Source of the DNA: a virus
Strand: one strand, 5' to 3'
Virus record (IMG/VR): IMGVR_UViG_3300020193_001983
Coordinates: 1-46,906 of that record
DNA length: 46,906 nt
The notes below the pieces were generated by a model. It saw only the letters and a list, made by a program, of their open reading frames with translations, ran no database searches and was not told the DNA's origin. A program made the translations under genes and the position numbers. Positions 13,756-46,867 of this stretch are shown piece after piece; position 1 is the stretch's first letter; each line of letters opens with the position of its first letter.

Positions 13756-14364
13756 TTACACTAAACCAAATAATTTCTTAGCTGCTGCTTCTATTTCTTG
13801 TGGATTTGGATTTACTGAAATTGACTGCCCATTAAAGCGATTACGAACAAAAATATACCTCTTATCCTTACTAGGTGTTATTGATAAAGAACCATTTTTA
13901 ATTCCCAATTTATTTTCTAATGTGCTAACGCTAAATGTATTTTGTCCCTGTAATTGTTGAACCTTTTGCATTACTGATGTCCACATAGCTCCGTTTTGAT
14001 TAAAACCTTGTAAAACGATTTCAGGTTTTTCACCATTTATAATTCTTTGAGCATATTCGGTTATTTTACGACCCTTCATATCATGAAAAGCACCAGTCAT
14101 GCCTTGAAATGCTGCATTTATATCTGCTGCTGTTTGGTTCTCCATGGGAATATCTCCAGCGGCTTTCAGTGCATCCATACCAACATTCCCCAATCCTTTT
14201 CCAACAGGTTCATTACGATTTTTCCATACAGAGCCTGCTACTTTAAAAGGAAGCTGTAAGGCTTGTTTGCCTGCATTTAATACCCCGCCCGCAGCACCAA
14301 TATATTGTTTACCTATGAAATCTTGCAGACCTTCTTCTTGCAGCCATTCGTTAAATGTCTTCAT
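13756..14364 (-). CDS. Putative internal head protein with capsid-targeting-like leader
   Basis: A 202-residue protein starting MKTFNEWLQEEGLQDF. A longer frame exists upstream but runs through the neighbouring gene, and the ATG at 14364 matches the leader found in other genes here. The leader resembles the T4 internal-protein targeting sequence (MKTYQEFIAEA), including Glu residues where the T4 prohead protease could cut. The rest has a glycine/alanine-rich part (YIGAAGGVLNAGKQAL) and a C-terminal half with ISVNPNPQEIEAAAKKL. No enzyme domain recognised. Start overlaps the end of the zincin-like gene by 14 bases. Confidence 0.65.
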   Translation of the reverse strand: MKTFNEWLQEEGLQDFIGKQYIGAAGGVLNAGKQALQLPFKVAGSVWKNRNEPVGKGLGNVGMDALKAAGDIPMENQTAADINAAFQGMTGAFHDMKGRKITEYAQRIINGEKPEIVLQGFNQNGAMWTSVMQKVQQLQGQNTFSVSTLENKLGIKNGSLSITPSKDKRYIFVRNRFNGQSISVNPNPQEIEAAAKKLFGLV

Positions 14365-14635
14365 GTTTATAAGCCTCTTTCTCAAAACTAATATTTCTAT
14401 AAGCTTCATCAAAATTCCAGTATTTAATGAAGTTTCGCATAAATTCGCAGATGTACTGTATATAGAATCTTGTGTTGCCAATATTATTTCTTTGGGCTAT
14501 ATGAATTTCTTCGTGTTTTATAGTTTCTGGATCAACTTCGTTTTTAGGGTATTTAAAGTAAGTATTCCAGGGTAGAGAGATAGCGTCAAAATTTTTAAGA
14601 ATTGGCAATTTGAATATCCAATGATTAAACTTCAT
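14351..14635 (-). CDS. Small zincin-like protein (HExxH)
   Basis: A 94-residue protein with the zinc-peptidase signature HEEIH in TIKHEEIHIAQ and a later conserved Glu in NISFEKEAY. This combination is familiar from a group of small bacterial HExxH proteins annotated only as hypothetical. Zinc binding by the two His and the distal Glu is likely; peptidase activity is not proven at this size. It is the first gene after a sigma70-type promoter on the minus strand. Confidence 0.65.
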   Translation of the reverse strand: MKFNHWIFKLPILKNFDAISLPWNTYFKYPKNEVDPETIKHEEIHIAQRNNIGNTRFYIQYICEFMRNFIKYWNFDEAYRNISFEKEAYKHEDI

Positions 14636-14671
14636 AATGGTATGTAGTTTTAAATAAAAATATTATATTTG

Positions 14672-14692
14672 AATACTATATAAAATAGTATT
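14672..14692. repeat. Short inverted repeat before the HNH gene
   Basis: Arms AATACTAT and ATAGTATT (8 bp, loop ATAAA) sit six bases before the ATG of the HNH gene and overlap the leftward promoter. It could be a repressor site or an RNA hairpin limiting translation of the endonuclease. Confidence 0.4.
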
Positions 14693-14704
14693 TGGATATG
14701 TCAA
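14677..14704 (-). promoter_or_regulatory. Sigma70-type promoter (leftward)
   Basis: On the minus strand TTGACA (14704-14699), a 16-base spacer and TATATA (14682-14677). It would drive the zincin-like gene starting at 14635 and the following operon, with a leader of about 35 bases. The -35 box is the complement of the HNH gene's first codons (ATGTCAA). Confidence 0.5.
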
Positions 14705-15477
14705 TACAATCAAGAACAAAAGAAGAAATATATAGGTATTTCCAAGATTGTGGTTGCACTCTCTTAGAAGACTATAGAACTGCTACGTATAAAATGAAAT
14801 ATATCTGCAAATGTGGTAGAGAATCTAAAATTAGTTGGAATAAATTTTTAGGTGGGAGGCGATGTGGATTTTGTGATCCTACCGGCAGAAAAAAGAAATA
14901 TTCTTTAGAAGAAGTTAAAGTCTTTTTTAGTGAAAGAGGATGCGTTTTATTGGCTGAGTCTTATGACAATAACAGATCGCCTCTTTTGTATAGATGTGTC
15001 TGCAACAATGTAGCTAAAATCTGTTTAACTGCTTTTCTGTACCAAAATCAGTTATGTATGAAATGTGGAGCTAAAGCTAGAACAGGTAAAAATAATCATA
15101 TGTGGATGGAAGACAGAGAAAAGCTTAAACTAAATTATAACTTTAGACAGAGATGCCGTCGTATCTTACAAAGAACTTTAAAAATAACTAATCAAAAAAA
15201 ATATGCTACTACCAATAAATCATTAGGCTACAGTAGCAAACAATTAATGGAACATATAACTTCTTTTGCTAATTGGGGATTAATTAGTCAGGATGTATGG
15301 CACATAGATCATATATTTCCAATAAAGGCTTTTTGTGATTTTGGCATTAAAGACATAAAAATCATTAATTGTCTTGATAATTTAAGGCCTATTTCTAAAA
15401 AAGAAAACCAACTTAAAAATGATACATATAATAAAGAGGAATTCAAAAATTGGTTAGCAAAAAAAATAGTTTTATGA
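14698..15477 (+). CDS. HNH homing endonuclease
   Basis: A 259-residue protein (ATG at 14698; a TTG two codons earlier is possible). The N-terminal half has two repeats of a Cys-containing unit, each with F-x4-GC-x-LL-x-(E/D)-x-Y and a following CxCG or CxC pair, suggesting zinc-bound DNA-reading modules. The C-terminal HNH nuclease has WHIDHIFP (H202, D204, H205), INCLDNLRP and an N in KKENQLKND. It lacks any role for its neighbours and is probably mobile. The stop overlaps the next ATG (ATGA), so the insertion has captured the following gene's translation start. Confidence 0.85.
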   Translation: MSIQSRTKEEIYRYFQDCGCTLLEDYRTATYKMKYICKCGRESKISWNKFLGGRRCGFCDPTGRKKKYSLEEVKVFFSERGCVLLAESYDNNRSPLLYRCVCNNVAKICLTAFLYQNQLCMKCGAKARTGKNNHMWMEDREKLKLNYNFRQRCRRILQRTLKITNQKKYATTNKSLGYSSKQLMEHITSFANWGLISQDVWHIDHIFPIKAFCDFGIKDIKIINCLDNLRPISKKENQLKNDTYNKEEFKNWLAKKIVL

Positions 15478-15983
15478 GTTTTAGATCATTTCTTGAGAAT
15501 GAAGAAATAGGCGAATGGCTTTTTTTCATTAATTTTAAACCAACAATTTGTGAAACCGCAGATAGCACTAGATATAGTATTGAAGTTAATTATAGAACTA
15601 CGCAAGATGAAATTTTATCAGCAGGAGCGAAAATAATACTTGGCTATGTTTCTGCTGGCATTAAGCAATATGACTTTCATGTTAAGCATGTTTATGCTGA
15701 AAAACCTATTAGAATATTGATTTCTAGCCGCAATTGGGATGATGGAGAATGGACTGTGCTTGTCTCTTGGAATGACAAAGAAAAATGTTTTGTTGCGTCA
15801 AAAGGTTTCTACAATAAAGATAGGCGAACTGTTTCCATACAGAGTAGTGAGAAATGTAGTGGAGAGAATGCCGCTGAGATTACAAAACAGGTTTATAATA
15901 TGATGTATGATTTGAAGGGTAAACCTGACAGACACATGGAGAAATTAAAACCTGTAAAATTAAAGCCGGGGCCTAAAAGTTGA
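15475..15983 (+). CDS. Hypothetical protein with capsid-targeting-like leader
   Basis: A 169-residue protein whose start is set by the leader MSFRSFLENEEIGEW at 15475; a longer frame from 15450 reads through the HNH gene. The leader matches those of other putative internal head proteins in this window. The mature part is a beta-rich domain (FFINFKPTICETADSTRYSI, IRILISSRNWDDGEWTVL) followed by a basic, proline-rich tail (KLKPVKLKPGPKS). No family recognised. The ATG overlaps the HNH stop codon. Confidence 0.6.
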
Positions 15984-16010
15984 TATTATTCAGCAAATGG
16001 GTTGGCTTTG

Positions 16011-16217
16011 CTAAAGGTTATCAAAGCGGCAAGGAAAATTGGTAAAAATAGATTTAAGCACAGGCAATCCTTCCTTAGACATACTACCGCTTAACTTGGA
16101 AGCTTCCTCAAATGTATCATGACAAAAATCACAACCACCACCATTGCAACTAGTGTTTTTACATCTTTCGCACACTATGCAAGCACAATTACATGTCTCA
16201 CACCAATACCAATCCAT
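16011..16217 (-). CDS. Small cysteine-rich zinc-binding protein
   Basis: A 68-residue protein with ten Cys, most in pairs (WCETCNCACIVCERC, then CNGGGCDFCHDTF), which can hold two zinc ions. It follows the AlkB-like gene by nine bases on the same strand. No defined family; possibly a nucleic-acid or protein-binding knuckle. Confidence 0.6.
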   Translation of the reverse strand: MDWYWCETCNCACIVCERCKNTSCNGGGCDFCHDTFEEASKLSGSMSKEGLPVLKSIFTNFPCRFDNL

Positions 16218-16226
16218 TTAATTCTC

Positions 16227-16738
16227 CTAGTCAGCACATCTAAAAACAATAGAATATCGTAAATCTATTGCTGGTTCTGTTGAATGTTCCCAGCTATCTC
16301 TAATTTCTCCACTAATTTGCATTAAACTTTTAGCTGGCAATGGCACTGTATAATTTAACTTTTCTTTTCTTTTAGAGAAAATCATTTTTGTTTCACTTAA
16401 AAGACTTAAAACTGTAATTATTTGACCGCTTTCTTTGCTATCAATATGTGCTGATATTTTTTGCCCTTCAAAATATTCATTTATAGTTACAGAAGCAGGT
16501 CTGGTTTTAACTAAGTTTTTTTCAACCAATCTATCTAAAATGAAATTAAAATACTCAGGAATAATAGAAGACACCATATTGCTTTTATAAGGCAAATCCG
16601 AACCATACCTCATTATATTATTTCTGTTTTTAGTTTTTTTATAGTCCCAGACTTTATATTTTTCATTAATTCTTGTTCTTCTTCAACAGTAATAAAGTCA
16701 AAAACAATAGAAAATCCTAAACTTTCAATATTTTCCAA
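16227..16738 (-). CDS. AlkB-like 2OG-Fe(II) dioxygenase, frame broken
   Basis: The uninterrupted C-terminal frame (from ATG 16613) has the full active-site set of AlkB: H56 and D58 (SAHIDSK), H110 (SWEHSTEP) for iron, and R119-x5-R125 (RYSIVFR) for 2-oxoglutarate. Upstream DNA encodes the expected N-terminus in another frame: a TTG at 16738 after AGGAG starts LENIESLGFSIVFDFITVEEEQE, and the frame then shifts to INEKYKVWDYKKTK leading into MRYGSDLPYK. One base seems lost near 16666-16675. The product would be about 170 residues and would repair alkylated nucleic acid, perhaps phage DNA. It is downstream of the tube paralogue gene. Confidence 0.75.
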
Positions 16739-16747
16739 TAAAAACTC

Positions 16748-17719
16748 CTAAGAACATTGAGCAGGCAATGAACACACAGGCAATATGTCTGAAGGCACAT
16801 ATGGCGCACAACACAATCCAATTTCAGGTGGAAGCGGTAAAATTTCACATTCAAGAATTTCTCCGTTACAAATACACCGTAAAATAACTGGTTCACCTAC
16901 AGCACTAGCCGTCAATGGCAAACTTATATTAATATATATCTCTTCGACTAAATCAGGATACCTTTCAACTAGACGATCATCAGATGATATACATATAACT
17001 TGATCACTATCAGTTCGAGACGTTGCACTCAATTCAATAAGACCACTATATTGTGGATTTGCGAAAACAATATTCGCACTAATTACAACTGTGTCTCCTA
17101 CATATAAAGGACAATGATCAGTAGCAATTGATATAAAATTACCAAAATCATCAACAAAAGCATCTTGACAAACTCCACAATCATCATTATCACATAGGTT
17201 TGAATTAATTGATGCTGCATTATATGTCACAGTCATTTTTATCATACATGCATCAGGCTGCGACATATCAAGTTCGCCAAAATCTACACTGGAAGGCCAC
17301 GCATCCCATAAAACACAAGTTTCAACAACATTACCACACCCATCTAACATCTCTAATATAATTCTGCCAAATGCACTCTGACAAGGTGGCACATTCACAC
17401 TAAAAGGGTCTTTTGTTCTCATATAAATTTGAATCCATCTATATAATGAATTCAAGTCTAAACCAACTACATCATAAAAACTAAATTCTATAGGCTCATA
17501 AGTAACTTCTTGTGCAGGTATTTTATATTTTTGACCATTATAATGAACATCTACTTCATCTATATTTATTTTTGGGCGACTACCACTAAATACATTTGAA
17601 GCCCAAAAATATTCAGTATTCGAACCACATGTGAAACTTAAACTAAATCTCCATCTAAATTTTCGCTTGAAAATTATATTTGGCCCACCAAGCGGTCCTA
17701 ATCCCATATTACTAGACAT
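16748..17719 (-). CDS. Tail tube-like protein with C-terminal extra domain
   Basis: A 323-residue protein whose first 175 residues are related to the tube protein at 31966: GLGPLGG-NIIFKRKFRW matches GLGPIGNSDNIFKRKFRW, and YDVVGLDLNSLYRWI, DGCGNVVETCVLWDAWPSSVDFGELDMSQ have close counterparts. The remaining 140 residues are not in the other copies: a beta-rich domain with CPLYVGDTVVISANIVF and IYINISLPLTASAVGEPV, like an immunoglobulin-type fold. It may be a decorated tube protein or the T4 gp54-like tube initiator; the sequence does not decide. Start has an AAAGG Shine-Dalgarno. Confidence 0.7.
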   Translation of the reverse strand: MSSNMGLGPLGGPNIIFKRKFRWRFSLSFTCGSNTEYFWASNVFSGSRPKINIDEVDVHYNGQKYKIPAQEVTYEPIEFSFYDVVGLDLNSLYRWIQIYMRTKDPFSVNVPPCQSAFGRIILEMLDGCGNVVETCVLWDAWPSSVDFGELDMSQPDACMIKMTVTYNAASINSNLCDNDDCGVCQDAFVDDFGNFISIATDHCPLYVGDTVVISANIVFANPQYSGLIELSATSRTDSDQVICISSDDRLVERYPDLVEEIYINISLPLTASAVGEPVILRCICNGEILECEILPLPPEIGLCCAPYVPSDILPVCSLPAQCS

Positions 17720-17764
17720 AATTACCTTTAATTGATTTAATTAATATGTTGACTAAAATATATA

Positions 17765-18494
17765 TTAGTCATTATCTTTATTTAACAACTCCTCAACCAA
17801 TTTAGGCATCTGTTCTCCTGCTTTACCTGCAAATTTAGTAAAACTATGCAATCGTAAAGGAGGCTCTGGATCAACCCAATATTTCTTTTCAGTATCCTTA
17901 AATTCAAATATCAAACCAGCTGCCGGATAAACCTGGGCACTCGTTCCAACCCCTATAAATATATCAGCTTCTCTCTTTAACTGTTCCAAATATTTATCTT
18001 GTAAATCTACTGCCTCACCAAACCAAACAACATCTGGCCTTAAATGTCCACCACACAAAGGACAAAAATCATTTATCGTGGCAGGTTTATTATGAACAAT
18101 CTTATAGTTACAACTAAATTTATCGTTTTTAGCTATAGAACTATGCCACTCACACTTCCTAAAACTCAAGCTTCCATGCAGATGCCACACATTCATACAC
18201 CCAGCCCTTTCCAACAAATCATCTACATTTTGAGTTATATTGATTACATTATACTTTTCTTGTAACTTAGCTATAGCCTTATGTGCCGCATTAGGTTCTG
18301 CTGCCTGCACATTGTTCCATCTATCTGCATAAAATTGTAACATCACTTCTTTGTTCCATTTCCAAGCATTATGGTCCGCAACTTCCTCCACCTTATAATT
18401 ATGCCACAAACCATCAGTAGAATCACTAAAAGTTGGAATCCCGCTCTCTTTAGATAACCCAGCACCAGATAAGACAACTACTGTTTTTTTTCAT
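17765..18494 (-). CDS. Sirtuin (NAD-dependent deacylase), frame broken at start
   Basis: A Sir2-family protein of about 240 residues. The open frame shows ITQNVDDLLERAG, the catalytic His in HLHGS (H78 of the open frame), four zinc Cys (86, 100, 116, 119), RPDVVWFGE and GVGTSAQVYPAAG. The NAD-binding start is upstream in another frame: SGAGLSKESGIPTFSD. An ATG at 18494 precedes a run of eight A; with seven A the frame would be continuous (MKKTVVVLSGAG). So there is one extra base, by error, mutation or transcriptional slippage. It removes acyl groups from lysines, consuming NAD and releasing nicotinamide. Confidence 0.8.
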
Positions 18495-18514
18495 ATGCTC
18501 TACTATAGTAAAGA

Positions 18515-19207: not shown

Positions 19208-19209
19208 GC

Positions 19210-19238
19210 TTGACAAAAGAAATAAGTTTTGAAATAAT
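19210..19238 (+). promoter_or_regulatory. Sigma70-type promoter of an intergenic RNA
   Basis: TTGACA (19210-19215), 17 bases, then AATAAT (19233-19238). No reading frame follows before the terminator at 19299-19332, so it would make a short non-coding transcript. Confidence 0.5.
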
Positions 19239-19244
19239 ACTTTT

Positions 19245-21925: not shown

Positions 21926-24883
21926 ATGCGTACAAAATCTTTTTCTGATTATATCTCAAAAGAATGGGATGTTTGGAGATTTACAAAGCTGCAAGAGGCT
22001 AGAGAAAAGCTTACAGAGAACAAAGAAGGTTCTCCAATGGCTTATGCTGGCAATCAATCTAAAGCTCCTTTGCTTTGGACTGAGGATGATATGAAGTTTT
22101 TGTCACAATTTCCAGTGTCTTTGTGGTCCCAAGCTTTACAATGGAGATATAATGAAGGTTTAATTCAAGTATCAAAACTTAGAGAAGAAGACCCTAATGG
22201 AAAAAAAGGTAGTTATGATTCTATCCCTGATGAAATTCCAGAAATTACTTTAAGAGGAATGGGCGGCAAGAAATATAAATTCTACAATGTTTATACTGGT
22301 TTTAAACAGTTAATGCAGATGTTAGAAAAGCCTATAAAATATAGAAAAAGTCATAACCCAATGGGATATTACAAGGACAATCCAGAAGGTCCAGGTATTG
22401 AAGACATAGACCCATTCGAAACTAATCCAGAAAGTGAGAAGCATAGAAGCAAATATTCTGGAGGTTTACACGATTACGATCTTTCTCATCCAATAGAAGT
22501 TTCAGATGAGTATATTGATTCTATTCCTGATGAAGATATTGTAGTTCCAAAAGGGAAAGAAAGGACTCCGCAAAATATAGAAAAAGCAAGAGACAAGATG
22601 AAAAAAGATAGGTATAATTCTTTCCAAGGGATGGCAGTCTTAAGGCCAGTTGTTGCTTCAAAACTACTTGCCAATTGGTTAAAAGCACAAGGTTTAGGAT
22701 TATTAGGGGAAGTTCCTAATCAAGTAAAAGACCCTATAACTGGTCAAACTGTAGCAACAAAGCAAGTAAATCCAGATGCTGTTGATAAAAGATTGAAACT
22801 AAGAGTGGGAGAGGACGACAATAAAAGCTTTAATCACGGCCCTTCAGCAATTGGTGGTAAGCGTGTACCCATTAATCTTCCTGCTTTTGAAAGAAAAATA
22901 AATTATGTCGAGGTTTCAAAAGATGGCAAGGAAAAGCAGGTTACAAAAAATGTACTAATGCCATATTTGAAGCCAGGCGTAATATTGCCGAGAATTTTTG
23001 ATTTATCATTAGATCAAAAATATATTCTAGCAACAAGAAACAAGGAATTCGTTGACAATTATGAAAAACTTTGTCCCCAGCTTGGGCCATTAACTCCTGG
23101 AAATTGGAGTCATATATATCAAACTTGTACAGCAGCAAAAAGGGCGGCTCAGGTCAATGAGTTATCTAAATTGCTAACAAATTATGATATTCTAACTCCC
23201 GAACAGGTTGATCATTTAAAGAAAAATCAAAGAGACTTATATCATGTGGCTTCTTCTGAATTTGCTGGTTCTAAAGACCCTTGGAGCAAAGCAGGTGGAT
23301 TTTATCCTATTGGCTGGTCAACGAATAAAGGAAAAAGAAAGATTGTTCCTGCCGATATGGAACAAGATCAATTAAGAACAGCAATCGATAAGCACTGGCA
23401 AGAATTATTTGATTTGTCTTTTAAACAAATCGGTTATTTTATAAGTTGGGCTAGAAAAAGCAATGAATTACCAAAGGCTGTAGTAGACATGTTGGAAAGA
23501 ATTCATCCTGATTTGGCTAATGTTGCAGCAGCTTTACTTGGTTTAAATTTAAATCATCCACGTTTAGGTGTTTATGACCCTGAATCGGGTTTAACCAATG
23601 TAAAGGGTGAAGACTCTGATTTGAAACAAGACAGAGCTAATTATGTGATGAATTTAACAAGGGATTTATCGCAAGCAGCTTTTGGTGATTTGCCGGGACG
23701 TAGACAAAGAGAAAAAGGTGGTGCCAAAACAGTAAGTGCGAGTTCAGGAGACGCAGAAAAAGGTAGTCTGTCTGATATTATCTCTACTGATGCTGGTATT
23801 TCTGGTAATTCTGGTTGGGATACTCGTAGAACATGGCTTAATCCAAAGACTGAACCTATTATTGATCCTTCTGGAAACGTTACTTATCAACCTACCAGAA
23901 TGATTTGGAATGTTCCACAAATTAACCACAAAATTGACGCATACTTCAAAACAAAGAGAAATTTGATTGCGTCACGATTAGGTGATGATTTTGCTCAAAT
24001 GGTTGATAATACAAGAGATAAGCTAAAGACTGAAGTTGCTGCAATGAATGAATTAATGAGCAAAGCAACAAAAGAGCTTGAATCACAAGGTTTTAGTGGA
24101 GAGAAACTTGAAGACAAAGCAAGAGAAATGGCCATGTCACAATTGTCAGATAAATTAAAGGAACTAAGACCTGACCTTTACAGCAAATCTTCTTCCTCTG
24201 AAATGGAAGACATTGCACGAAAGTTTAAAGACTTCAATAAATCTAATTTTAGTGCAGAAGTAAAGGGCAAAGAAGATGAAGTAATGATGAGCTTCTTTGA
24301 TTCTTTATTGAATGGCGAATCTGTGCCTATGCCTTATTATGACGAAAATACGGGTGAATTTAGCAAAACAGAGCAAGCATTTTCATTAGATCAGTTAATG
24401 AAGAGTGGTGTGAACAGTGCCAAGTCAGTATTGCAGTTCATATTTAAACTTTGGAGCGAAGAAGGTGCAGAAGAATATGCTGTACCTATGACAATGGCTG
24501 TTAGCAAGAAAATGGGACAGAATATATCTGAAAATGATGCGATACAGCAAGTTGTAACAGCTTCGCAACAGATGGAAAGGCCGATTAAGCCTAATCAAAA
24601 ACCTACCCAAACTGCTGCCGCTCCTCAACCAACTGCACAACCAATGAAACAAGCTGCAAGTGATATTAGCAGTGTTGTACAAGATTTGCCAAATAACTAT
24701 ATGAAAATTTGGAATATGAAGGATAAGTTCGCTGACCCAATGGCAAAACAACTGTTGCAGGTCTATTTTGACAAGTTGATTAAGCAAATACAGGGTATGG
24801 CGGCTCAACAGCAAGAAATACCAGATAACTTATTAGCTGCACTTAAGGTAGTTGGACAAGTGTTGAAAGGAAAACCTATATGA
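21926..24883 (+). CDS. Large putative internal head protein (985 aa)
   Basis: The longest gene here. It begins MRTKSFSDYISKEWDVW, resembling the capsid-targeting leader of other proteins in the window. No enzyme motif or family was recognised. The protein is hydrophilic, with a Lys/Glu-rich coiled-coil-prone part at about residues 680-790 and a Gln/Pro/Ala linker near 890-915 (KPNQKPTQTAAAPQPTAQ) before a short helical C-terminal domain. It has a late promoter box, so it is made with virion proteins. A protein of this size with such a leader could be a packaged, injected effector or a core protein; both are inference. A large intact frame with regular codon use makes the gene itself certain. 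Confidence 0.8.
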   Translation: MRTKSFSDYISKEWDVWRFTKLQEAREKLTENKEGSPMAYAGNQSKAPLLWTEDDMKFLSQFPVSLWSQALQWRYNEGLIQVSKLREEDPNGKKGSYDSIPDEIPEITLRGMGGKKYKFYNVYTGFKQLMQMLEKPIKYRKSHNPMGYYKDNPEGPGIEDIDPFETNPESEKHRSKYSGGLHDYDLSHPIEVSDEYIDSIPDEDIVVPKGKERTPQNIEKARDKMKKDRYNSFQGMAVLRPVVASKLLANWLKAQGLGLLGEVPNQVKDPITGQTVATKQVNPDAVDKRLKLRVGEDDNKSFNHGPSAIGGKRVPINLPAFERKINYVEVSKDGKEKQVTKNVLMPYLKPGVILPRIFDLSLDQKYILATRNKEFVDNYEKLCPQLGPLTPGNWSHIYQTCTAAKRAAQVNELSKLLTNYDILTPEQVDHLKKNQRDLYHVASSEFAGSKDPWSKAGGFYPIGWSTNKGKRKIVPADMEQDQLRTAIDKHWQELFDLSFKQIGYFISWARKSNELPKAVVDMLERIHPDLANVAAALLGLNLNHPRLGVYDPESGLTNVKGEDSDLKQDRANYVMNLTRDLSQAAFGDLPGRRQREKGGAKTVSASSGDAEKGSLSDIISTDAGISGNSGWDTRRTWLNPKTEPIIDPSGNVTYQPTRMIWNVPQINHKIDAYFKTKRNLIASRLGDDFAQMVDNTRDKLKTEVAAMNELMSKATKELESQGFSGEKLEDKAREMAMSQLSDKLKELRPDLYSKSSSSEMEDIARKFKDFNKSNFSAEVKGKEDEVMMSFFDSLLNGESVPMPYYDENTGEFSKTEQAFSLDQLMKSGVNSAKSVLQFIFKLWSEEGAEEYAVPMTMAVSKKMGQNISENDAIQQVVTASQQMERPIKPNQKPTQTAAAPQPTAQPMKQAASDISSVVQDLPNNYMKIWNMKDKFADPMAKQLLQVYFDKLIKQIQGMAAQQQEIPDNLLAALKVVGQVLKGKPI

Positions 24884-25035
24884 TGACATTTAAAGAATGG
24901 GTAGAAAAAAAATTAAAAGAAATGGCTGGAACTGGCGCTATAGTAAGTAGTTGCAAAGGTGATAAAGATTTTCAAGTTTTTGGAGCGTGCAGTGATATTA
25001 AAAAAAATCAAAAAAATAAAATGGGCAAAAAGTGA
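24883..25035 (+). CDS. Small protein with capsid-targeting-like leader (50 aa)
   Basis: Starts MTFKEWVEKKLKEMAG (a second ATG one codon upstream overlaps the stop of the 985-aa gene). The leader-like N-terminus makes up a third of the protein; the rest is GTGAIVSSCKGDKDFQVFGA and a basic tail ending in GKK. The LAGLIDADG frame starts inside it, so the endonuclease has inserted against or over its 3' end. Either the protein is complete at 50 residues, or the original C-terminus was lost. Confidence 0.55.
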   Translation: MTFKEWVEKKLKEMAGTGAIVSSCKGDKDFQVFGACSDIKKNQKNKMGKK

Positions 25036-25870
25036 AGATAAAATACTTAAAAATAATTTTGGCAAAATGTCTCGCAAAGAAATAATAAAAAAATTGCCTA
25101 ATAGAACTGTTTGCGCAATATCTTATCGAGCTAAAGTTATTGGATGTGAAAAATATTCCCATGAAAAAAGAGGATTTTTAACAAGAGGCAAAAATAGGAA
25201 ATATAATATAGATTTTAATTTTTTCGAAAAAATTAACGAAATAAATTCATATTGGGCAGGTTTCATTGCTGCTGATGGTTGTATTAAAACTAAAAGAAGA
25301 GAAATTGTAATAGGAATAAGTGAAAAAGACAAAAAACATTTAGAATTATTTTCTATTTATTTAAAATACAACGGTTCATTGATTAAAGTGCCTAAAAAAA
25401 AATCAAAAGCAATCAACGGAAAGCCTATAAATTCTGGACCATCTGTGAGAATGGAATTGTATGGGGTCGAACGTCTTATAAATGGACTGAAAAAAAATTT
25501 CAACATAGAAGATAGAAAATCCTTAATTCTAAAACCTCCTGTAAATTTAAAAATTAAATATGCTTTGTGTTATATAGCTGGGTATCTTGATGGAGATGGG
25601 CATATCCATAAATATAAAAACAAAAATAACAAATATAGCGTTGGATTCATAGGAACTTTTGAAGTATTAAATTGGATAAAATCAACACTCGATATAATTG
25701 CACCTAATGAAGAAGGACAACACAAAGGTAAAGAGGCTAAAGTATTTACAAAAGGCAAGTATCCCAGATATCTTATAGGAGGCAAAAGAGTTTTCAAATT
25801 GGCAAGAAAAATAAACAAGCTAAAATTACCATTATTAAAAAGAAAATGGGGGAAAATATTAACATCTTAG
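24959..25870 (+). CDS. LAGLIDADG homing endonuclease
   Basis: A 303-residue protein with two LAGLIDADG helices: YWAGFIAADG (residues 98-107) and IAGYLDGDG (206-214), each with its catalytic acidic residue. An N-terminal Myb/SANT-like helical domain (about 20-62, IKWAKSEDKIL ... ISYRAKVIG) may help recognise DNA. The first possible start is GTG 24959; GTG 24992 is also possible. It overlaps the 50-aa gene upstream and the 93-aa gene downstream, so it is wedged between structural genes. The intron boundaries of a group I intron were not recognised, so it is called freestanding. Confidence 0.85.
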   Translation: MIKIFKFLERAVILKKIKKIKWAKSEDKILKNNFGKMSRKEIIKKLPNRTVCAISYRAKVIGCEKYSHEKRGFLTRGKNRKYNIDFNFFEKINEINSYWAGFIAADGCIKTKRREIVIGISEKDKKHLELFSIYLKYNGSLIKVPKKKSKAINGKPINSGPSVRMELYGVERLINGLKKNFNIEDRKSLILKPPVNLKIKYALCYIAGYLDGDGHIHKYKNKNNKYSVGFIGTFEVLNWIKSTLDIIAPNEEGQHKGKEAKVFTKGKYPRYLIGGKRVFKLARKINKLKLPLLKRKWGKILTS

Positions 25871-32693: not shown

Positions 32694-32730
32694 AGAAGAG
32701 GCATAGCTACTATGTCTCTTCTTTTTTTTT
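32694..32730 (+). terminator. Intrinsic terminator after the sheath-tube genes
   Basis: A 13-bp stem (AGAAGAG-G-CATAG / CTATG-T-CTCTTCT with a G-T pair, loop CTA) is followed by nine T. Strong terminator placed right after the main tube gene; the next gene starts at 32739. Confidence 0.85.
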
Positions 32731-38496: not shown

Positions 38497-39684
38497 ATGA
38501 GTAAGCGTTCTCGTCAACGTAAGCGGCGTCAGATGGAATCAGTTGTAAGGCGAGCCACTAATGCAGGGCTTTTAACTCCTAACACGCTGAGTGTAGCGGA
38601 AATTCTGGCAGAAAGGATGTCTGGCGGACATCTTCCCATCAAAGCTGCCTCTTTAGACACATCTAACCTTCGAGAAGTGAAGGAATGGCCTGCTAATTGG
38701 CCATTGTGCCCCAAAGCATTCAATCCAGAAGAATGGCGACGTTCTTTGGAAGCTATGGAACACTACTGTCTTGCTGCCACTGAACCTGGAAAAACCAAGC
38801 CTTGGTTCCAATATCCTAAATTCACGCATCAATATTCCGAGCTTGTCTTTGTGACACCGGAAATGGCCTTAGAACTTTTGGCTTATATGCCGGTTAACCG
38901 TACACTCAAGGAAAAGTGTGCCCAAGCATGTATGCGGGACATTCAGAATGAGCGTTGGATTCAAAGCCATGAATCGATTGCCATTAACACCCAAGGAAAT
39001 ATGCATGATGGTCAACATAGGGCTAAGGGTATTATTCTGGCTGGGCGTGGTTGGCCGATGTACATGACTTGGAATGTTCCGCCAGAAGCGCTTTACATTA
39101 CTGATTCTGGGGCACGGCGTAAGATTAATGAAAAGTTGGGTCTTCTCTATCCTGAAGAGAAGATTACCGCTAACAAGGCGGCTGTTTGCCGTGCCATGAT
39201 GTGGGGTTTGAACCGCAACACTCAGTATTCTGAATCTGAAATTGCTGAGTTCTTTTTGAAATACCATGACGTTATCAATTGGATATCAAGCCGATTGAAG
39301 AACATTCGTGCTGATATTCAGGCAGTGCTTGCCAAGGCGATTCTTTGGTGGGGGGAGGCTGTCGTAGCTCCTTTCGTTGACAGATTTTGCGCAGTACAAT
39401 TTACTGGAGAAGGCGACCCAGCCAAGGCTCTCTACCTATGGACTCAATCAGCCCGTAAGGAAGGAAAAAGAACCTACGCTAATCCATTAGTGTATTATAA
39501 GAAAACCCTTTCTGCTATTACGGCAGCAGCGGCTGGAAAAGAAGCTAAAAAGATTTACCAGAAACAGGGTGACATTTTTGAGTGGGAACAGGGATGGAAG
39601 GTTCCCGACTCTGCTCCATGTAGCGGTAATGTTTGGTTGCCCAAGGTTGAAGAAACTCCTGAAGCTGGCCAAACGGTTAGCTAA
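38497..39684 (+). CDS. ParB-like domain protein, GC-rich
   Basis: A 395-residue protein starting MSKRSRQRKRRQ, a strongly basic tail. The core near residues 155-200 has SIAINTQGNMHDGQHRAKGI and the downstream YITDSGARRKI, the pattern of ParB/Srx-like (DGQHR) proteins common in phages and plasmids. The C-terminal part ends with GEGDPAKALYLW and GDIFEWEQGW, which recur in the smaller gene at 39929. The base composition is plainly higher in G+C than its neighbours (31 of 60 bases in 39001-39060), which suggests recent transfer. An own promoter and ribosome binding site support this. Role uncertain: DNA binding, nuclease or ATP-hydrolysing modification. Confidence 0.65.
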   Translation: MSKRSRQRKRRQMESVVRRATNAGLLTPNTLSVAEILAERMSGGHLPIKAASLDTSNLREVKEWPANWPLCPKAFNPEEWRRSLEAMEHYCLAATEPGKTKPWFQYPKFTHQYSELVFVTPEMALELLAYMPVNRTLKEKCAQACMRDIQNERWIQSHESIAINTQGNMHDGQHRAKGIILAGRGWPMYMTWNVPPEALYITDSGARRKINEKLGLLYPEEKITANKAAVCRAMMWGLNRNTQYSESEIAEFFLKYHDVINWISSRLKNIRADIQAVLAKAILWWGEAVVAPFVDRFCAVQFTGEGDPAKALYLWTQSARKEGKRTYANPLVYYKKTLSAITAAAAGKEAKKIYQKQGDIFEWEQGWKVPDSAPCSGNVWLPKVEETPEAGQTVS

Positions 39685-39698
39685 ATTTTGGAGATATA

Positions 39699-39833
39699 AT
39701 GACAGGTCAAGAGATTTTGCAAAGATTTAAAAATAAGGAAATCTCTTTAGAAGAGGCTAGTGATTTAATCGAAAAGTTAAATCATGCTCGTAAATTTATA
39801 TACAATGAAATATCCTGTTACGTTACCTTATGA
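39699..39833 (+). CDS. Hypothetical small protein (44 aa)
   Basis: Starts MTGQEILQRFKNKEISLEEA after GGAG. A helical two-segment peptide ending in CYVTL. No family recognised. Coupled to the next gene, which begins within its end. Confidence 0.5.
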   Translation: MTGQEILQRFKNKEISLEEASDLIEKLNHARKFIYNEISCYVTL

Positions 39834-40905: not shown

Positions 40906-41199
40906 ATGGGATTTAAAGAATGGCTGAAGCAAGATGAGGCCAAAACATGGAGTAGCAAACTCAAAAAAGGGGCTTATTGGGCAGCGGATAAAGCACTTGC
41001 AGCAGCTTCGCCTTTATCCACATTAGCAGCGGCAGGAGCAGGAGGCTATCTAGGATATAATTATGGAAGCACTTTGGATTTTCTACCTAACAAATTAGCC
41101 GCAGCAGCAGTTAGCGCTCCCTTATTAGGGGGTCTGACACATTACAGTTTAAAAGATTTAAGGCATGCAATTCAACAAAAAATGGTTCATTTAAAATGA
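40906..41199 (+). CDS. Small protein with capsid-targeting-like leader and glycine zipper
   Basis: A 97-residue protein starting MGFKEWLKQDEAKTW, one of the leader-bearing set. The middle is Ala/Gly-rich and hydrophobic: AAGAGGYLGYNYGS (a glycine-zipper-like segment) and LAAAAVSAPLLGG, which could insert into membranes. If injected, it might form a membrane passage or help DNA entry (inference). The end overlaps the next ATG. Confidence 0.6.
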   Translation: MGFKEWLKQDEAKTWSSKLKKGAYWAADKALAAASPLSTLAAAGAGGYLGYNYGSTLDFLPNKLAAAAVSAPLLGGLTHYSLKDLRHAIQQKMVHLK

Positions 41200-42010: not shown

Positions 42011-42022
42011 ATACTAATTGAG

Positions 42023-42844
42023 TTACATGACAAACATTTTACCTTCTAATGAATCGAAATGGTTATCTAAGTAATACTCATACTTCCCAGCATAACCTTT
42101 TACAATTTCATCCCATTCAGTTAATTCTTCACCTTTAAGTTTTGTATATTTTCTATCATGTGCTGGATTTCCCCAAGCAAATCTTCTTCTTGTAATTAAG
42201 CTGGCCGGAATTGGGGCAAAGGTTATTTTTCCAGTTGTTATGTATTGAGCTACTAATTCATAAGCTAATTCATTAAAATTACGTAAGTTCTCTTTTCTAG
42301 CTGACCTCATTGTTCCTAAAGCTAAAGCTAAAGGCCGCAATTTTGTATTTCTTTCATAGATATCCGATCCTTTTTCGATACCATAAACTTGGTTTGCTAA
42401 GTCATAAAAATCTCTTGTTATTTCTTTAGCGAAATTGTCATTAAAAACATCAGTTCTTCTTATCGCATGTCCTAATCTATGAGCGATAATCCAGGCAGTC
42501 ATTGGCACTTTTTGATCACCAACATTATTAGTGAATATTATTGTTATAGCATCTGGTTTTGGTTCTATATCAACTTTAAGATTTTCTTTAACCCATTGAG
42601 GAGAAACTTCACCTACTTCCACATGTTTATAAGCATCTTTTGATTTTATAAAATACAAATCAAAAGTATTTTTGGAATTTGACCATAATTTATGTATTTT
42701 TTCTACACCAGCAGGATTATTTAATATGCCAACATCTTGCTTAGTGTAGCCATATTTACGTGGGTTAGCAGGATTCCAATCACCCTGCAAATCAAAAGTC
42801 CTGATTGGCATTTCATTCATGCCAATCCATTCTCTGAACGTCAT
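42023..42844 (-). CDS. Putative internal head protein, degenerate zincin motif
   Basis: A 273-residue protein starting MTFREWIGMNEMPIRTF, a capsid-targeting-like leader. A CATAAATA late-type box lies four bases upstream of the ATG. Residues around 120 read WIIAHRLGHAIRRT, which keeps the two His of a zincin HExxH helix but has Arg for the catalytic Glu; a later Glu (FNELAYELVA) could be the third ligand. So it may bind zinc without peptidase activity, or use another Glu. Packaging in the head is inferred from the leader. Confidence 0.6.
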   Translation of the reverse strand: MTFREWIGMNEMPIRTFDLQGDWNPANPRKYGYTKQDVGILNNPAGVEKIHKLWSNSKNTFDLYFIKSKDAYKHVEVGEVSPQWVKENLKVDIEPKPDAITIIFTNNVGDQKVPMTAWIIAHRLGHAIRRTDVFNDNFAKEITRDFYDLANQVYGIEKGSDIYERNTKLRPLALALGTMRSARKENLRNFNELAYELVAQYITTGKITFAPIPASLITRRRFAWGNPAHDRKYTKLKGEELTEWDEIVKGYAGKYEYYLDNHFDSLEGKMFVM

Positions 42845-42941
42845 ACCCTATTTATGCCCAAATTACTCATAATATTTATGTTGCTTAATGAATTATCATG
42901 AATAACCTAAACGATAAATTCACAGCATAGATAGATAGTAC

Positions 42942-43631
42942 ATGAAGACATTTACAGAATGGCTAAAACTACGTAAATATGGAGTTGATGCGGGAACATC
43001 GGACGCAATTGCCTTAGCTAAGAAATCACTTGGAATTTCCACTAACGAATGGTTTATTTTTGAAAATTACGACGCATCACACGCACTAATTGTGGTGGAT
43101 GTTCAAAATGATTTCGTGAATGGCTCTTTACCAGTCCCAGGGGCAAAAGAAATCATTCCGTATGTAAACAATTTAGCCAATAATATACGTAACAGCGGAG
43201 GAATTGTCGTATATACTGCGGACTTACATCCGGCCAATCACGTAAGTTTCAAAGGACAAGGGGGACAATGGCCTTCGCACTGTGTTGTAAACACTTTCGG
43301 CTCACAATTTGTTCCAGACCTTGAAGTAAATGGACCTATTTTCGACAAAGCAACAGAGCCAGATAAAGATTCTTACTCTGGTTTTGGTGGCAAACTAAGA
43401 TCACAAAAACCTACTACACTAGAAACCTACCTTAAAGAACACAATGTTACAAATGTCATTGTATGCGGGTTAGCATTAGATTATTGCGTACTAGCAACCG
43501 CAACTGACTCAAAAAAACATGGTTTTAACACCACTGTTTATTTGCCTGGTAGCCGAGCAGTAAACAATAAAGAAATTGAAACCTTAATTGCCAAGATAAA
43601 ACAACAAGGCATTAAAATTATTGCAACATAA
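42942..43631 (+). CDS. pncA: Nicotinamidase with capsid-targeting-like leader
   Basis: A 229-residue protein. Residues 47-229 form a complete isochorismatase-fold nicotinamidase: D53 (VVDVQNDF), K136 (FDKATEPDKDSYSGF), C182 (GLALDYCV); metal ligands D94, H96, H100 (TADLHPANH) and H113 (WPSHC). It converts nicotinamide to nicotinate. The first 46 residues are extra: MKTFTEWLKLRKYGV is nearly the T4 internal-protein leader, followed by a helical spacer. So the enzyme may be packed in the head and enter with the DNA. GATAAATT lies upstream. Together with the phage sirtuin it affects NAD turnover; it could also refill NAD lost to NAD-destroying defences. Confidence 0.85.
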   Translation: MKTFTEWLKLRKYGVDAGTSDAIALAKKSLGISTNEWFIFENYDASHALIVVDVQNDFVNGSLPVPGAKEIIPYVNNLANNIRNSGGIVVYTADLHPANHVSFKGQGGQWPSHCVVNTFGSQFVPDLEVNGPIFDKATEPDKDSYSGFGGKLRSQKPTTLETYLKEHNVTNVIVCGLALDYCVLATATDSKKHGFNTTVYLPGSRAVNNKEIETLIAKIKQQGIKIIAT

Positions 43632-43941
43632 ACTCGTGTGCGAATTGCTTGTTGAAGTGCTCTTTAACTTCTGTTGTTATAGATTTTGTGTATAAGTTCA
43701 AATCTACTGTTAGTGTCTTGCAATGTTTTTTAACCCACGGTGATAGAGCCGCATAGTATCCAGACACTTTTCCAAGGGCTATCCAGCGTTCCATATCCCT
43801 GCTACTCATCATAATCTGTTCTTCTTTGGGCGTACCTTCAAACCGGCCTTCTAGAAAGGCTTTAGTTGTTACCAACTCCTTAACTATGTCTGCAAAAGGA
43901 GTTATGTCTAAGCCAACTTCCTCCTTAGAGGAATACGTCAT
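43618..43941 (-). CDS. Hypothetical protein truncated by the TnpB element
   Basis: A 107-residue protein with ATG at 43941 (MTYSSKEEVGLDITPF). The longer frame starting at 44016 reads through antisense tnpB sequence and is not original. No family recognised; charged and helical with LVTTKAFLEGRF and LGKVSGYYAALSPWV. The transposon remnant begins within a few bases of the ATG, so the original upstream region or N-terminus is gone. It ends convergent with the nicotinamidase gene. Confidence 0.55.
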   Translation of the reverse strand: MTYSSKEEVGLDITPFADIVKELVTTKAFLEGRFEGTPKEEQIMMSSRDMERWIALGKVSGYYAALSPWVKKHCKTLTVDLNLYTKSITTEVKEHFNKQFAHEFMLQ

Positions 43942-44676
43942 GCAACTGTGAGCCTCAATCGTGCCGGTCAGTATTTTGTTGCTATTCTCGTTGAACGAGA
44001 AATTAAGCCACTCCACAAGGTTAAGAAGGAAGTTGGTATAGACCTTGGCATCTGTGCTTTAGCAACAACTTCTGCTGGCAAAGAGTATAAGAACATCCGT
44101 CCGTATCGTAGTTTGCAAAAAAGACTACGAGCATTAAACAAGAACCTGCATAGGAAGAAACTTGGTAGCAATAATCGTGAACGAGCCAGGAAGTTGCTTG
44201 CCAAGGTGCATATTAAGATTGCGAACATACGCAGCGACCATTTGCATAAAGTAAGTCGTCAGATAATTGACGAGAACCAAGTCATTTGTCTGGAGACGTT
44301 GAATGTAAGTGGCATGATGCGTAATCATTGTCTTGCTAAATCCATTGCCGATGTTAGTTTGTCTGAATTAGTCAGACAGATTGAGTATAAGGCGAATTGG
44401 TGTGGCAGGACGGTCATCAAAGTAGATAGATGGTTTCCATCCAGCAAGACTTGTTCAAAATGTGGTTTTGTCATGGACTCACTACCTCTTAAGATTAGAG
44501 AGTGGATTTGTCCGAAGTGCAAGGCAAAACATAACCGTGATAAGAACGCTGCTGTTAACATCCTTAACGAAGGAAAAAGAACCGTAGGAACTACGGAGTT
44601 AGCGTATGGACTCAATGTAAGACCTAAGAGCATTCAAGGGCGGTTGAGGATGAAGTACGAAGCCCCTACCCTTTAG
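43942..44676 (+). pseudogene. tnpB: Truncated TnpB (RNA-guided nuclease of IS605 type)
   Basis: The 242-residue frame covers only the RuvC and zinc parts of TnpB; about 130-150 N-terminal residues are missing. It starts in the strand ATVSLNRAGQYFVAILVE. The RuvC acidic residues are all present: D32 (VGIDLGI), E116 (ICLETLNV) and D198 (NRDKNAAVNIL). The zinc knuckle has C169, C172, C188, C191. Without the recognition lobe it cannot be a normal RNA-guided nuclease, but the catalytic set is intact. GC-rich codons suggest bacterial origin. Confidence 0.8.
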
Positions 44677-44692
44677 GGTAGGGGTAGTTCAC
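44663..44692 (+). repeat. Right-end hairpin of the IS605-type element
   Basis: Arms CCCCTACCC (44663-44671) and GGGTAGGGG (44676-44684) with loop TTTA, then TAGTTCAC. The stop codon of tnpB lies in the loop and stem. In active elements this part is the end cut by TnpA and the 3' portion of the guide RNA; whether an RNA is still made is unknown. Confidence 0.7.
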
Positions 44693-45734
44693 CAGCTTCT
44701 TTTTGAGTATTAAAAGCAATAGCATCTTTTTTATTCTCAACCCAATCATAGTAGAGTCTTTCATTAGGTTTGCCCATCCATCTAACAGAATCGCTACCTT
44801 CGGCTACAATATACCATTTCTTATCTTTAGCAGCCATGAATCCGTCATAATATCCACTATTGTAACGTTCTCCAAGTAAATCCAATTCCATTATCGATTT
44901 TCCTTCATCTTGATCTTCAACGCCTTGAGTATAACCAAGATGATAAATTTTCTTATAAATATTATCCTTTCTACCAGCATCGGGATCAGCTTCTTTCAAG
45001 TAAATGAACTCTTGTAATACTTCTTGCCTATAGCCTTCTTCTCCCATTATTTTCTTCATTTCTTTACACCATTCAAGAGTATGTTCTGGATGTTCTGTGT
45101 GATCTGATTTAAATATATAAAAATTATTCTTTTTGTCTAGAGCATTTGTATATGTTTTATAAAACCAATTATTGTCTCTATTTGTTGTTGAAAGGACTAT
45201 GCAATTACCACCACAACTTAAGACAGGAAACATACCTCTCCAATGACTTTCCATATCATTATAAAAAGCTGCTTCGTCAATGAATAAATGGTTTAATGCT
45301 TGACCACATGTTGCTTGAGGCGTATAAGAAAACAATTTACAACTAGTTTCTATAAATGTCTTTTGATGGTCATTATCTTTACTAAGTTTAGGTTTTATCC
45401 ATTCAGGCAATTGATTTATAGCAAAATTCACAATCTTCATTAAACTGCAAGCTTCCCTATCAGTTTTAGAAATCATTACACAACTTTTATCTAATCCAAA
45501 CATGCACTTCCAAAAGAGATAAAGAATTGTCGTTGTAGTAAAACCACCTTGTCTGAATTTAGTGCCTATTACAAACCTATTATTTTCATAACATTCTATA
45601 AGTCTTTCTTGAAATGGATATAATTTTAGAGGAATAATTCCATGCTTTGGATGTAGAATTTTGATGTAATTTTTAACGAAATAAGGGAAACTAAGTGCGC
45701 ACTTTCTCAGTTCTTCGATTTGATTTATATTCAT
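44673..45734 (-). CDS. Terminase large subunit ATPase, 3' end cut by TnpB element
   Basis: A 353-residue protein. The packaging ATPase is clear: a deviant Walker A with early Lys (K59-FRQGGFTTTT, residues 59-68), Walker B HLFIDEAAF with D153 and E154, and coupling motif STTNR (182-186), followed by NNWFYKTYTNA as in T4 gp17. After about residue 260 the expected RNase H-like nuclease domain is absent; instead GYTQGVEDQDEG and YYDGFMAAKDKKWYIV appear, an unfamiliar segment. The last residues ELPLP and the stop come from the inserted TnpB end. AAGGA precedes the start. T4 gp17 has 610 residues. Confidence 0.75.
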   Translation of the reverse strand: MNINQIEELRKCALSFPYFVKNYIKILHPKHGIIPLKLYPFQERLIECYENNRFVIGTKFRQGGFTTTTILYLFWKCMFGLDKSCVMISKTDREACSLMKIVNFAINQLPEWIKPKLSKDNDHQKTFIETSCKLFSYTPQATCGQALNHLFIDEAAFYNDMESHWRGMFPVLSCGGNCIVLSTTNRDNNWFYKTYTNALDKKNNFYIFKSDHTEHPEHTLEWCKEMKKIMGEEGYRQEVLQEFIYLKEADPDAGRKDNIYKKIYHLGYTQGVEDQDEGKSIMELDLLGERYNSGYYDGFMAAKDKKWYIVAEGSDSVRWMGKPNERLYYDWVENKKDAIAFNTQKEAGELPLP

Positions 45735-45800
45735 ATATGTCCTTTCTAGTTAAAGATATATAGCTAATAAAGAATAATACTAACAACAATAAATAAAGTT

Positions 45801-46427
45801 ATGAAGAGATTTTACGAATTTTACCATATAATCAAAGAAGCTAACGAATCACAAATTTGGGCTGTTGATTCATACGATTATGAAGGCAGGCATGTCACCG
45901 GAACAACTCTTTATCATGACAAAGGAGTTGCTGAGGCTCAAAAAAGTAATTGGACTAGAGTAAGACCAGTTAATGTAACGGGAAAATATCATCCTGGGCA
46001 ACCTGTTTGGAAAATAATGCAATATGGATATGGAGACATGTTTGACAGAGGTAACGCAAGTTATTTTGCCGACAGAGAAGAAGCAGCAAGAGTTGGTGGC
46101 AAATGGGAGCAACCGCAGGAAACAAAAGTATTTAATTCCGCTGAAGAAGCAAAAAAATTCCATGCAGGTGAAAATGAAAGATATAAAAACGATGAATTAA
46201 ATAGAGTAGCAAAGGAAAAATCAGAATATCCAAATATAGTTAAAAAAATATTAGCATCTTTTAAAGAAAAAGTGCAACAGGCTGAGCAAATCATGATTTC
46301 TTCAGATGGGACTACAAGCGAAGGTTATTCCGCTATTTGGAAGGCTTTAGATGAAGTTGAAAATAAAGCAAAAGGACTAAAAGAATGGTTGCGTAATGCC
46401 AGCTTCCATCATTTTAATCAACGCTAA
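45801..46427 (+). CDS. Hypothetical protein with capsid-targeting-like leader
   Basis: A 208-residue protein starting MKRFYEFYHIIKEANESQIW. An AATAAATA box stands directly upstream. The part after the leader is a beta-type domain (WAVDSYDYEGRHVTGT, VWKIMQYGYGDMFDRGNAS) followed by a long charged helical C-terminus (residues 120-200). No family recognised. Probably a head-associated protein by leader and promoter type. It is divergent from the terminase. Confidence 0.6.
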   Translation: MKRFYEFYHIIKEANESQIWAVDSYDYEGRHVTGTTLYHDKGVAEAQKSNWTRVRPVNVTGKYHPGQPVWKIMQYGYGDMFDRGNASYFADREEAARVGGKWEQPQETKVFNSAEEAKKFHAGENERYKNDELNRVAKEKSEYPNIVKKILASFKEKVQQAEQIMISSDGTTSEGYSAIWKALDEVENKAKGLKEWLRNASFHHFNQR

Positions 46428-46867
46428 CCATTTGGTGGTTGTTGAGGCATTTCAGGTGGCTGCTCTTGTCCTTGTGGCATTTGAGGCATCTTCTTTTCTT
46501 CAGCAGGTTCTTCCTTTTTCTTTCTGCCTAGGTTATTGACAGGAACACCTATTTTCTCTGATACACTTTCTAATTCATTTCTAACACTATTTAGAATTTC
46601 TCTTAAATCACCTTTTTCATCAATAGCTCGCATCAAAGCTACACCGCATTTCTGTAGCTTTTTAAGGTACTTGTATTCAGTCCTTGGCCAGCTATTATGT
46701 AAAACCTTACGTATTTCAATTACTATGGTTTCTACACTCTTAACAAGTTGACGTGTGCCTACTTGTTTCCCAGCTGCGATAAGTTCATGTACGGATGTAA
46801 GAATATCTCCTACTCTATGGCCTAAGTATTCTCTTGATTCTGTAATTAAATATTGCTTAAAATTCAT
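46424..46867 (-). CDS. Hypothetical protein with capsid-targeting-like leader
   Basis: A 147-residue protein starting MNFKQYLITESREYLG; LITES would fit a T4-type protease site region. The body is helical, basic and compact (LTSVHELIAAGKQV, YKYLKKLQKCGVALMRAI), and the C-terminal 35 residues are Pro/Gln/Glu-rich (MPQGQEQPPEMPQQPP). A CTAAATAA box lies just upstream. It overlaps the end of the previous convergent gene. Confidence 0.6.
   Translation of the reverse strand: MNFKQYLITESREYLGHRVGDILTSVHELIAAGKQVGTRQLVKSVETIVIEIRKVLHNSWPRTEYKYLKKLQKCGVALMRAIDEKGDLREILNSVRNELESVSEKIGVPVNNLGRKKKEEPAEEKKMPQMPQGQEQPPEMPQQPPNG

Follow-up and report, generated by a model that had tools for sequence, protein, structure and literature searches.

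A leader resembling that of T4 internal proteins recurs on unrelated proteins across a lineage of large T4-like phages

Why do proteins with otherwise unrelated sequences begin with nearly the same few residues? The question is raised by a 46,906-base virus fragment (IMG/VR record IMGVR_UViG_3300020193_001983; hereafter the window, analyzed over its full length), in which a first-pass annotation had singled out nine proteins with a short N-terminal leader like that of the phage T4 internal proteins, and had proposed that the phage packs these proteins into its head and injects them with its DNA. Here we find this leader on many unrelated proteins of the window and its relatives, which form a lineage of large, uncultivated T4-like phages. 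We consider it likely that the leader is a propeptide that targets proteins to the capsid in the manner of the T4 internal proteins, and that its use has expanded greatly in this lineage.

All nine N-termini are present in the window sequence. The window genes are also present, nearly identically, in a sibling record of 85,058 bases (G001), and both window and sibling were held out when we built a position-specific leader model from 111 instances in nine relatives. Scored against 59,081 interior windows, eight of the nine leaders were borne out (p 1.7e-5 to 5.6e-4), including that of the 985-residue protein encoded at 21926 (p 5.6e-4). The leader of the protein encoded at 45801 is unproven because it reaches only 1.7 bits (p 0.019). 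A strict regular expression, F.[EQSD][WFY][LIVM] within the first few residues, matched 8 of the 63 called genes of the window and nothing in 10,254 interior residues. One of the eight, at 32712, is a tail-tube paralogue whose start is probably wrong, which leaves seven window genes; the 51-residue open reading frame at 24883 lies below the 60-residue minimum of the longest-frame gene caller and hence outside the 63-gene count. Hits that we judged false (the tail tube at 32712, OGFr_N, two PrkA, a primase and helix-turn-helix (HTH) activators) were retained in every count.

The same leader is concentrated in one lineage. Relatives were collected through the T4-type baseplate hub protein, keeping the best 80 of 168 loci, and the lineage set comprises nine records of 76 to 533 kb (the sibling, G003-G007, G013, G014 and G017) together with LR756511, a 595-kb metagenomic phage genome. 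The sibling gave 11 strict matches where 0.07 were expected (Poisson p 3e-21); three of its leader genes (G001 1950, 3433 and 10216) lie beyond the part shared with the window. The other counts (expected numbers in brackets) were 17 (1.44) in G003, 14 (0.72) in G004, 14 (0.46) in G005, 14 (0.47) in G006, 10 (0.29) in G007, 4 (0.14) in G014, 5 (0.15) in G017 and 32 (2.72) in LR756511, the weakest enrichment being that of G013 (2 against 0.11, p 0.006). Genes were called with an untrained longest-frame caller, and because several ATGs were tried per gene, these chance expectations are somewhat low. With a looser expression, F..[WFY][LIVM], the sibling had 14 matches against 0.5 expected and LR756511 had 52 against 7.2.

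Could such N-termini simply have been picked from a background that resembles them? Phage N-termini have a composition of their own, being often short, charged and aromatic, and other T4-like phages show lysine-rich pairs. We nevertheless regard chance or composition as hardly credible, given the sibling's count alone, the held-out model and a pair test in which 19 single residues and four residue classes were examined at spacings 1-6 with no motif preset. Among 3,471 N-termini from the ten genomes, F-x-x-W was the most enriched pair (123 against 15.2 expected, z 27.7) and F-x-x-[FWY] the second (303 against 91.5); neither was among the top twelve pairs in 1,216 N-termini pooled from RaK2, Flavobacterium immuto, T4 and Microcystis Mel-JY01. 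RaK2 and immuto also gave 1 and 0 strict matches, against 0.99 and 0.46 expected.

Among the other comparison phages, strict matches numbered 3 (0.48 expected) in T4 and 4 (0.34) in Mel-JY01; looser matches numbered 3 (3.3) in RaK2, 3 (1.4) in immuto, 4 (1.1) in T4, 7 (1.5) in Mel-JY01 and 7 (3.5) in XacN1. The leader model found 4 matches in XacN1 where 0.6 were expected (a single gene in the terminal repeats accounts for two) and 2 in Mel-JY01 against 0.24, and the leader may thus reach weakly beyond the lineage. In T4 itself, an expression allowing [FY] gave 5 matches against 1.08 expected: IPII, IPIII, gp61.1 and two others. Only gp61.1 exceeded the threshold of the leader model. Of the T4 proteins, this hypothetical one of 54 residues (AF158101 18966-19130) fits the lineage model best. 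Its sequence starts MKTFKEFIKED and the record does not list it among the internal proteins; judged by this sequence, it may be an unrecognised T4 internal protein.

A second element accompanies the leader. The T4 protease gp21 cleaves after L/I-X-E (PMC9026906, section 9), and [LIM]xE occurs at +6 to +11 from the first phenylalanine, positions that the regular expression does not fix, in 35 of 90 representatives of leader-bearing families; of 3,253 other N-termini, 309 have it (odds ratio 6.1, p 3.2e-13). One hit of 60 residues or fewer was left out of one comparison, and control N-termini were length-filtered alike, also in this family test. The element is specific for glutamate: when E was replaced by nine other residues, only N showed a weak excess (p 0.009). 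In the window, six of the nine leaders carry [LIM]xE and 21926 has one at +18; the proteins encoded at 40906 and 42942 have none in their first 24 residues. By eye, L[MIF]NE is conserved in the capsid proteins of six relatives at the expected end of a T4-like propeptide, and LNES lies near the start of two of the three gp21 homologues shown.

This glutamate-specific motif fits a substrate of a prohead protease, and it therefore speaks against the possibility that the leader is an address elsewhere, such as the tail or neck, the replication compartment or a membrane, and resembles the T4 leader by convergence. In favor of such an address, the gene for the 985-residue protein adjoins a head-tail-adaptor-like gene. 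Apart from the false-start match at 32712, however, no leader is seen on the window's proteins for sheath, tube and hub, and we consider a different address quite improbable.

The claim that the proteins are unrelated beyond their starts held up: once the leader was removed, the 122 leader matches of the ten genomes, sibling included, fell into 90 families (blastp, E up to 1e-3). A family with a SWIM zinc finger carries the leader in G003, G005, G017 and LR756511, and the three homologues compared from outside the lineage, those of XacN1, Stenotrophomonas RAS14 and Vibrio Va2 (3 of 21 other records), start differently. We scanned 30 of the 89 proteins in an alignment of leader proteins and 10 of the 33 LR756511 matches individually against Pfam; the alignment holds 89 of 91 proteins from the nine records, omitting two that cross a stretch boundary and not covering LR756511. 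In the relatives the leader precedes the recognisable domain, which begins at residue 14 in a Nudix protein, 21 in a DUF3293 protein (with a SAM-lyase match just below the Pfam cut-off), 41 in a GNAT protein and 54 in a 2H phosphoesterase; in two tRNA-nucleotidyltransferase-like proteins the best domain stretch begins at residue 164. Leader-like starts were also seen on enzymes of RNA-repair type (LR756511 411779, 580680 and 582920; G006 209277; G004 263100), namely 2H phosphoesterases, tRNA nucleotidyltransferase-like proteins and a HAD protein of the Swiss Army Knife RNA-repair type. One leader-bearing protein of the alignment matches a portal-protein PHROG (phrog_15528, 1.5e-10).

That the tagged proteins include an enzyme was likewise supported. 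The protein encoded at 42942 matches PF00857 (5.8e-29) and aligns from residue 47 with the nicotinamidase of PDB entry 1ilw (5.5e-45). Its enzyme domain starts at residues 46-48, which correspond to chain residues 2-6 of the nicotinamidases 1ilw, 29iv and 3pl1; thus, the leader lies on an extra N-terminal extension. The D, K and C of 1ilw and its metal-binding D, H and H all have their counterparts at the aligned positions. The protein is a predicted nicotinamidase of isochorismatase fold with its key residues in place.

How does this arrangement compare with T4? For IPIII, section 10 of PMC9026906 assigns targeting chiefly to residues 4 and 7 and processing to residues 8 and 10. Residues 4 and 7 of T4 are both aromatic and three apart, the spacing of the lineage F-x-x-W. 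The statement that T4 internal proteins start MKTYQEFIAEA is correct for IPII and IPIII; IPI starts MKTFKEFTSTTT. Both systems combine a short N-terminal leader, two aromatics three apart and unrelated mature parts, and the lineage leaders are enriched for a motif that would suit the L/I-x-E rule. They differ in scale, with about 10-50 tagged genes per large genome in the lineage against three named in T4; PMC12373910 mentions at least ten internal proteins of this type in related T-even phages. In the lineage, the first aromatic is F and the second often W, the commonest place of the cleavage-type E is +8, counted from that first aromatic (+6 in IPII and IPIII), and the tagged proteins include recognisable enzymes. 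Considered as a sequence-based prediction, a T4-type capsid-targeting leader is well supported: by the spacing of the aromatics, the glutamate-specific motif, the invariant F3 and E10 of the 46424 family, the head module with its S77 protease in relatives, the leader-like gene beside the portal gene in most of them and the lack of the leader in the three outside homologues of the SWIM family.

Other head-borne systems offer further comparisons. In SPN3US and phiKZ, as described in PMC5694885, the prohead protease also cuts N-terminal propeptides, and head proteins are thought to enter the host; however, several of those propeptides exceed 100 residues (one has 20), whereas the lineage leader spans about 10-20, and the phiKZ protease belongs to MEROPS S80, that of the lineage relatives to S77. 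The P1 proteins DarA and Hdf are head-borne anti-restriction proteins as well. Among the titles and abstract beginnings of the best-ranked open-licence literature on internal or injected proteins of huge and jumbo phages and on capsid targeting, the expansion was not reported. What we regard as new is the lineage itself, with its expanded set of tagged genes, its longer spacing and its enzymes as presumed cargo; the T4 system is already known.

Our model suggests that the two aromatics (F-x-[EQ]-[WFY]) would bind a protein into the prohead core, as T4 residues 4 and 7 imply, and that a gp21-type S77 protease would cut at [LIM]-x-E during head maturation, as the motif and the protease found in relatives indicate. 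The freed cargo would remain in the head and leave with the DNA at infection, and the tag, being modular, could sit on many unrelated proteins. The analogy with T4 suggests that tagged proteins may enter the host together with the DNA.

The protease that this model needs was sought as the first-pass annotation had advised. An S77 protease was above the cut-off in 8 of 20 records, the sibling being among the 20, and the same model was above the cut-off in all six of LR756511, immuto, Mel-JY01, T4, XacN1 and KVP40; gp23 was found in 10 of the 20 records, two of them partial. The relatives keep the order portal-gp21-gp22-gp23, as in the T4 series gp20-gp21-gp22-gp23. The protease is therefore present in relatives, but none is recognisable in the window or the sibling, both of which are fragments. 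Because neither contains recognisable head genes, the link to the protease rests on the relatives.

The portal region also bears on whether tagged proteins are delivered at all. On its other side the portal gene has a divergent neighbour of 108-143 residues that starts with F..[WFY] in six of seven relatives (G003, G004, G006, G014, G017 and LR756511, not G013), three of the seven matching the strict expression. The leader might target the prohead while the majority of its bearers serve in the core or in assembly, as gp67 and gp68 do in T4, and are then broken down or left behind in the emptied head. Such a role would agree with this small leader-like gene and with the best-conserved tagged families being small and lineage-wide, as is the family of the protein encoded at 46424 with its proline-rich tail. 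We consider it unlikely, since many tagged proteins are unrelated and patchy in their distribution, and the nicotinamidase, Nudix, 2H phosphoesterase, tRNA nucleotidyltransferase-like and GNAT proteins are not obviously of use in head construction.

Beyond capsid targeting as such, it is quite possible, and we propose it only tentatively, that the leader serves general delivery, with each virion bringing in tens of proteins that would act in the host ahead of all phage gene expression. The delivered set would then comprise an enzyme of nicotinamide adenine dinucleotide (NAD) salvage and a lineage-wide kit for RNA repair and counter-defence, made up of tRNA nucleotidyltransferase-like proteins, 2H phosphoesterases, an RNA-repair-type HAD protein, Nudix, GNAT and DUF3293/SAM-lyase-like proteins. 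According to PMC12373910, IPI-III counter type IV restriction enzymes. The majority of the presumed cargo belongs to families of unknown kind, and early counter-defence may be the task of many of them. If general delivery were true, any new gene could become cargo by gaining about ten codons; a T4 curiosity of three injected proteins would become a readable code that lists candidate injected proteins from sequence alone, and the lineage would offer a naturally occurring collection of short tags with which to load enzymes into phage heads.

Several observations weigh against packaging by such a leader. No virion proteomics was found for the lineage, so packaging is unproven, and neither gp21 nor gp23 is recognisable in the window or the 85-kb sibling. 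RaK2, a T4-like jumbo phage for which 54 virion proteins have been published (PMC3622015), has no more strict matches than chance predicts; since the leader is absent there, RaK2 neither supports nor refutes delivery in the lineage. As a control, T4 performs imperfectly: of its five matches, two lie outside or opposite annotated genes, IPI is missed, and the lineage model leaves IPII and IPIII out of its T4 top ten. As many as 55 of the 90 families and three of the nine window leaders have no [LIM]xE at +6 to +11. Among the 89 aligned proteins, seven are doubtful (two PrkA, one primase, two HTH activators, one OGFr_N and one tail tube), as are two M14/aspartoacylase-like matches. The leader is not clearly common on cytoplasmic replication proteins, an observation that the first-pass annotation had named as refuting: the seven false or cytoplasmic matches compare with about 3.9 by chance, the summed expectation for the nine genomes that gave the 89. 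Finally, a box enriched upstream of leader genes is rare at core structural genes.

This box is TATAAATA, with at most one mismatch allowed. Of 122 leader genes, 40 have it in the 45 bp upstream, compared with 281 among 3,349 other genes (p 1.1e-13). It stands 22 bp before the ATG at 21926 and 4 bp before that at 40906. TATAAATA or TAAATA boxes were seen close upstream of the starts at 21926, 40906, 42844, 45801 and 46867, and in the lineage they are often 0-9 bp away, a closeness that suggests very short untranslated mRNA leaders. We rejected the box as proof of late expression: TAAATA occurs at 19 of 131 core structural genes against a background of 7.1%, and because core structural genes are mostly without the box, it does not show late expression.

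The nine proteins of the window are listed in Table 1.

Table 1. Leader and leader-like proteins of the window, with scores from the held-out leader model
Position	Strand	Length (residues)	Start and features	Model bits	Model p
13756..14364	-	202	MKTFNEWLQEEGLQ; LQE site	16.1	5.1e-5
15474..15983	+	169	MSFRSFLENEE	18.9	1.7e-5
21926..24883	+	985	MRTKSFSDYISKEW	10.0	5.6e-4
24880..25035 (ATG 24880 or 24883)	+	51	MMTFKEWVEKKLKEMAG...GACSD	17.3	1.7e-5
40906..41199	+	97	MGFKEWLKQDEA; hydrophobic body	19.0	1.7e-5
42023..42844	-	273	MTFREWIGMNEM; contains AHRxGHA	18.6	1.7e-5
42942..43631	+	229	leader-bearing predicted nicotinamidase; PF00857 5.8e-29	13.7	1.2e-4
45801..46427	+	208	MKRFYEFYHIIKEA; leader-like with IKE-A, not significant	1.7	0.019
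46424..46867	-	147	MNFKQYLITES; widely conserved lineage family	13.8	1.2e-4

Some of the starts first proposed needed adjustment. The second gene begins at 15474 and not 15475, the first has its leader ATG at 14364, within a longer TTG-started frame, and the frame at 24883 is distinct from the 985-residue gene, whose stop it overlaps. We considered this 51-residue frame as the 5' exon of an intron-split gene, with 25846 as the 3' exon, and rejected the idea. It is a complete small gene, because in relatives 25846 is a separate gene downstream of homologues of the 985-residue gene and because G007 has, at the syntenic place, a 59-residue homologue of the small protein (39580-39759). By eye, a frame resembling a homing endonuclease (24959-25870) starts inside the 3' end of this small gene and ends within the next gene.

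Conservation differs widely among the nine. The protein encoded at 13756 is of unknown family and gave a homologue only in the sibling contig, and that encoded at 45801 has one only in the sibling among the loci searched, along with a weak match (0.0016) to a PHROG whose function is unknown. Apart from this match and the nicotinamidase, the tagged window proteins submitted to Pfam and PHROGs (all but 24883) had no match, and Rfam gave no match in the window at the gathering threshold. The family of 15474 has 15 matches among the relatives' frames, its other members starting MKSFKEWKLEES or similarly, and the LR756511 homologue is 67.9% identical over residues 1-156; an AlphaFold model of the family was of moderate quality (predicted local distance difference test score, pLDDT, 65) and had no Foldseek match at E<=0.001 in PDB or BFVD. 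In some homologues of the 985-residue protein, the aromatic-x-x-aromatic start is kept. The protein encoded at 42023 has a homologue in another contig (L287, 39% identity) that retains the leader and [ML]xE-M and adjoins a gene (27-2711) that by eye resembles a portal gene with an intein-like insert; an AlphaFold model of the window protein, made with one homologue, was unusable (mean pLDDT 33). The 46424 family has 37 matches, of which 17 were aligned: F3 and E10 are invariant, and 16 of the 17 are 29-55% identical to the window protein.

Elsewhere in the window, the terminase large subunit (44673-45734, 353 residues) matches residues about 54-361 of relatives that are 596-652 residues long, and the C-terminal nuclease half was not found in the 85-kb sibling by tblastn with six relatives. 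A convergent TnpB-like gene (by eye, 43948-44676) overlaps the 3' end of the terminase gene by 4 bases. An insertion that cut the gene, a split gene or a second copy are candidate explanations for the short terminase. Between 3556 and 11697 lie sugar-nucleotide, transketolase-like, aminotransferase and radical-SAM-like genes (by eye), a block that is probably concerned with glycan synthesis. In the sibling, a ribonucleotide-reductase-like gene with an intein-like insert (by eye) occupies 4584-7223, and a CTP-synthase-like gene (by eye), at 7232-8863, adjoins the leader gene that corresponds to 46424.

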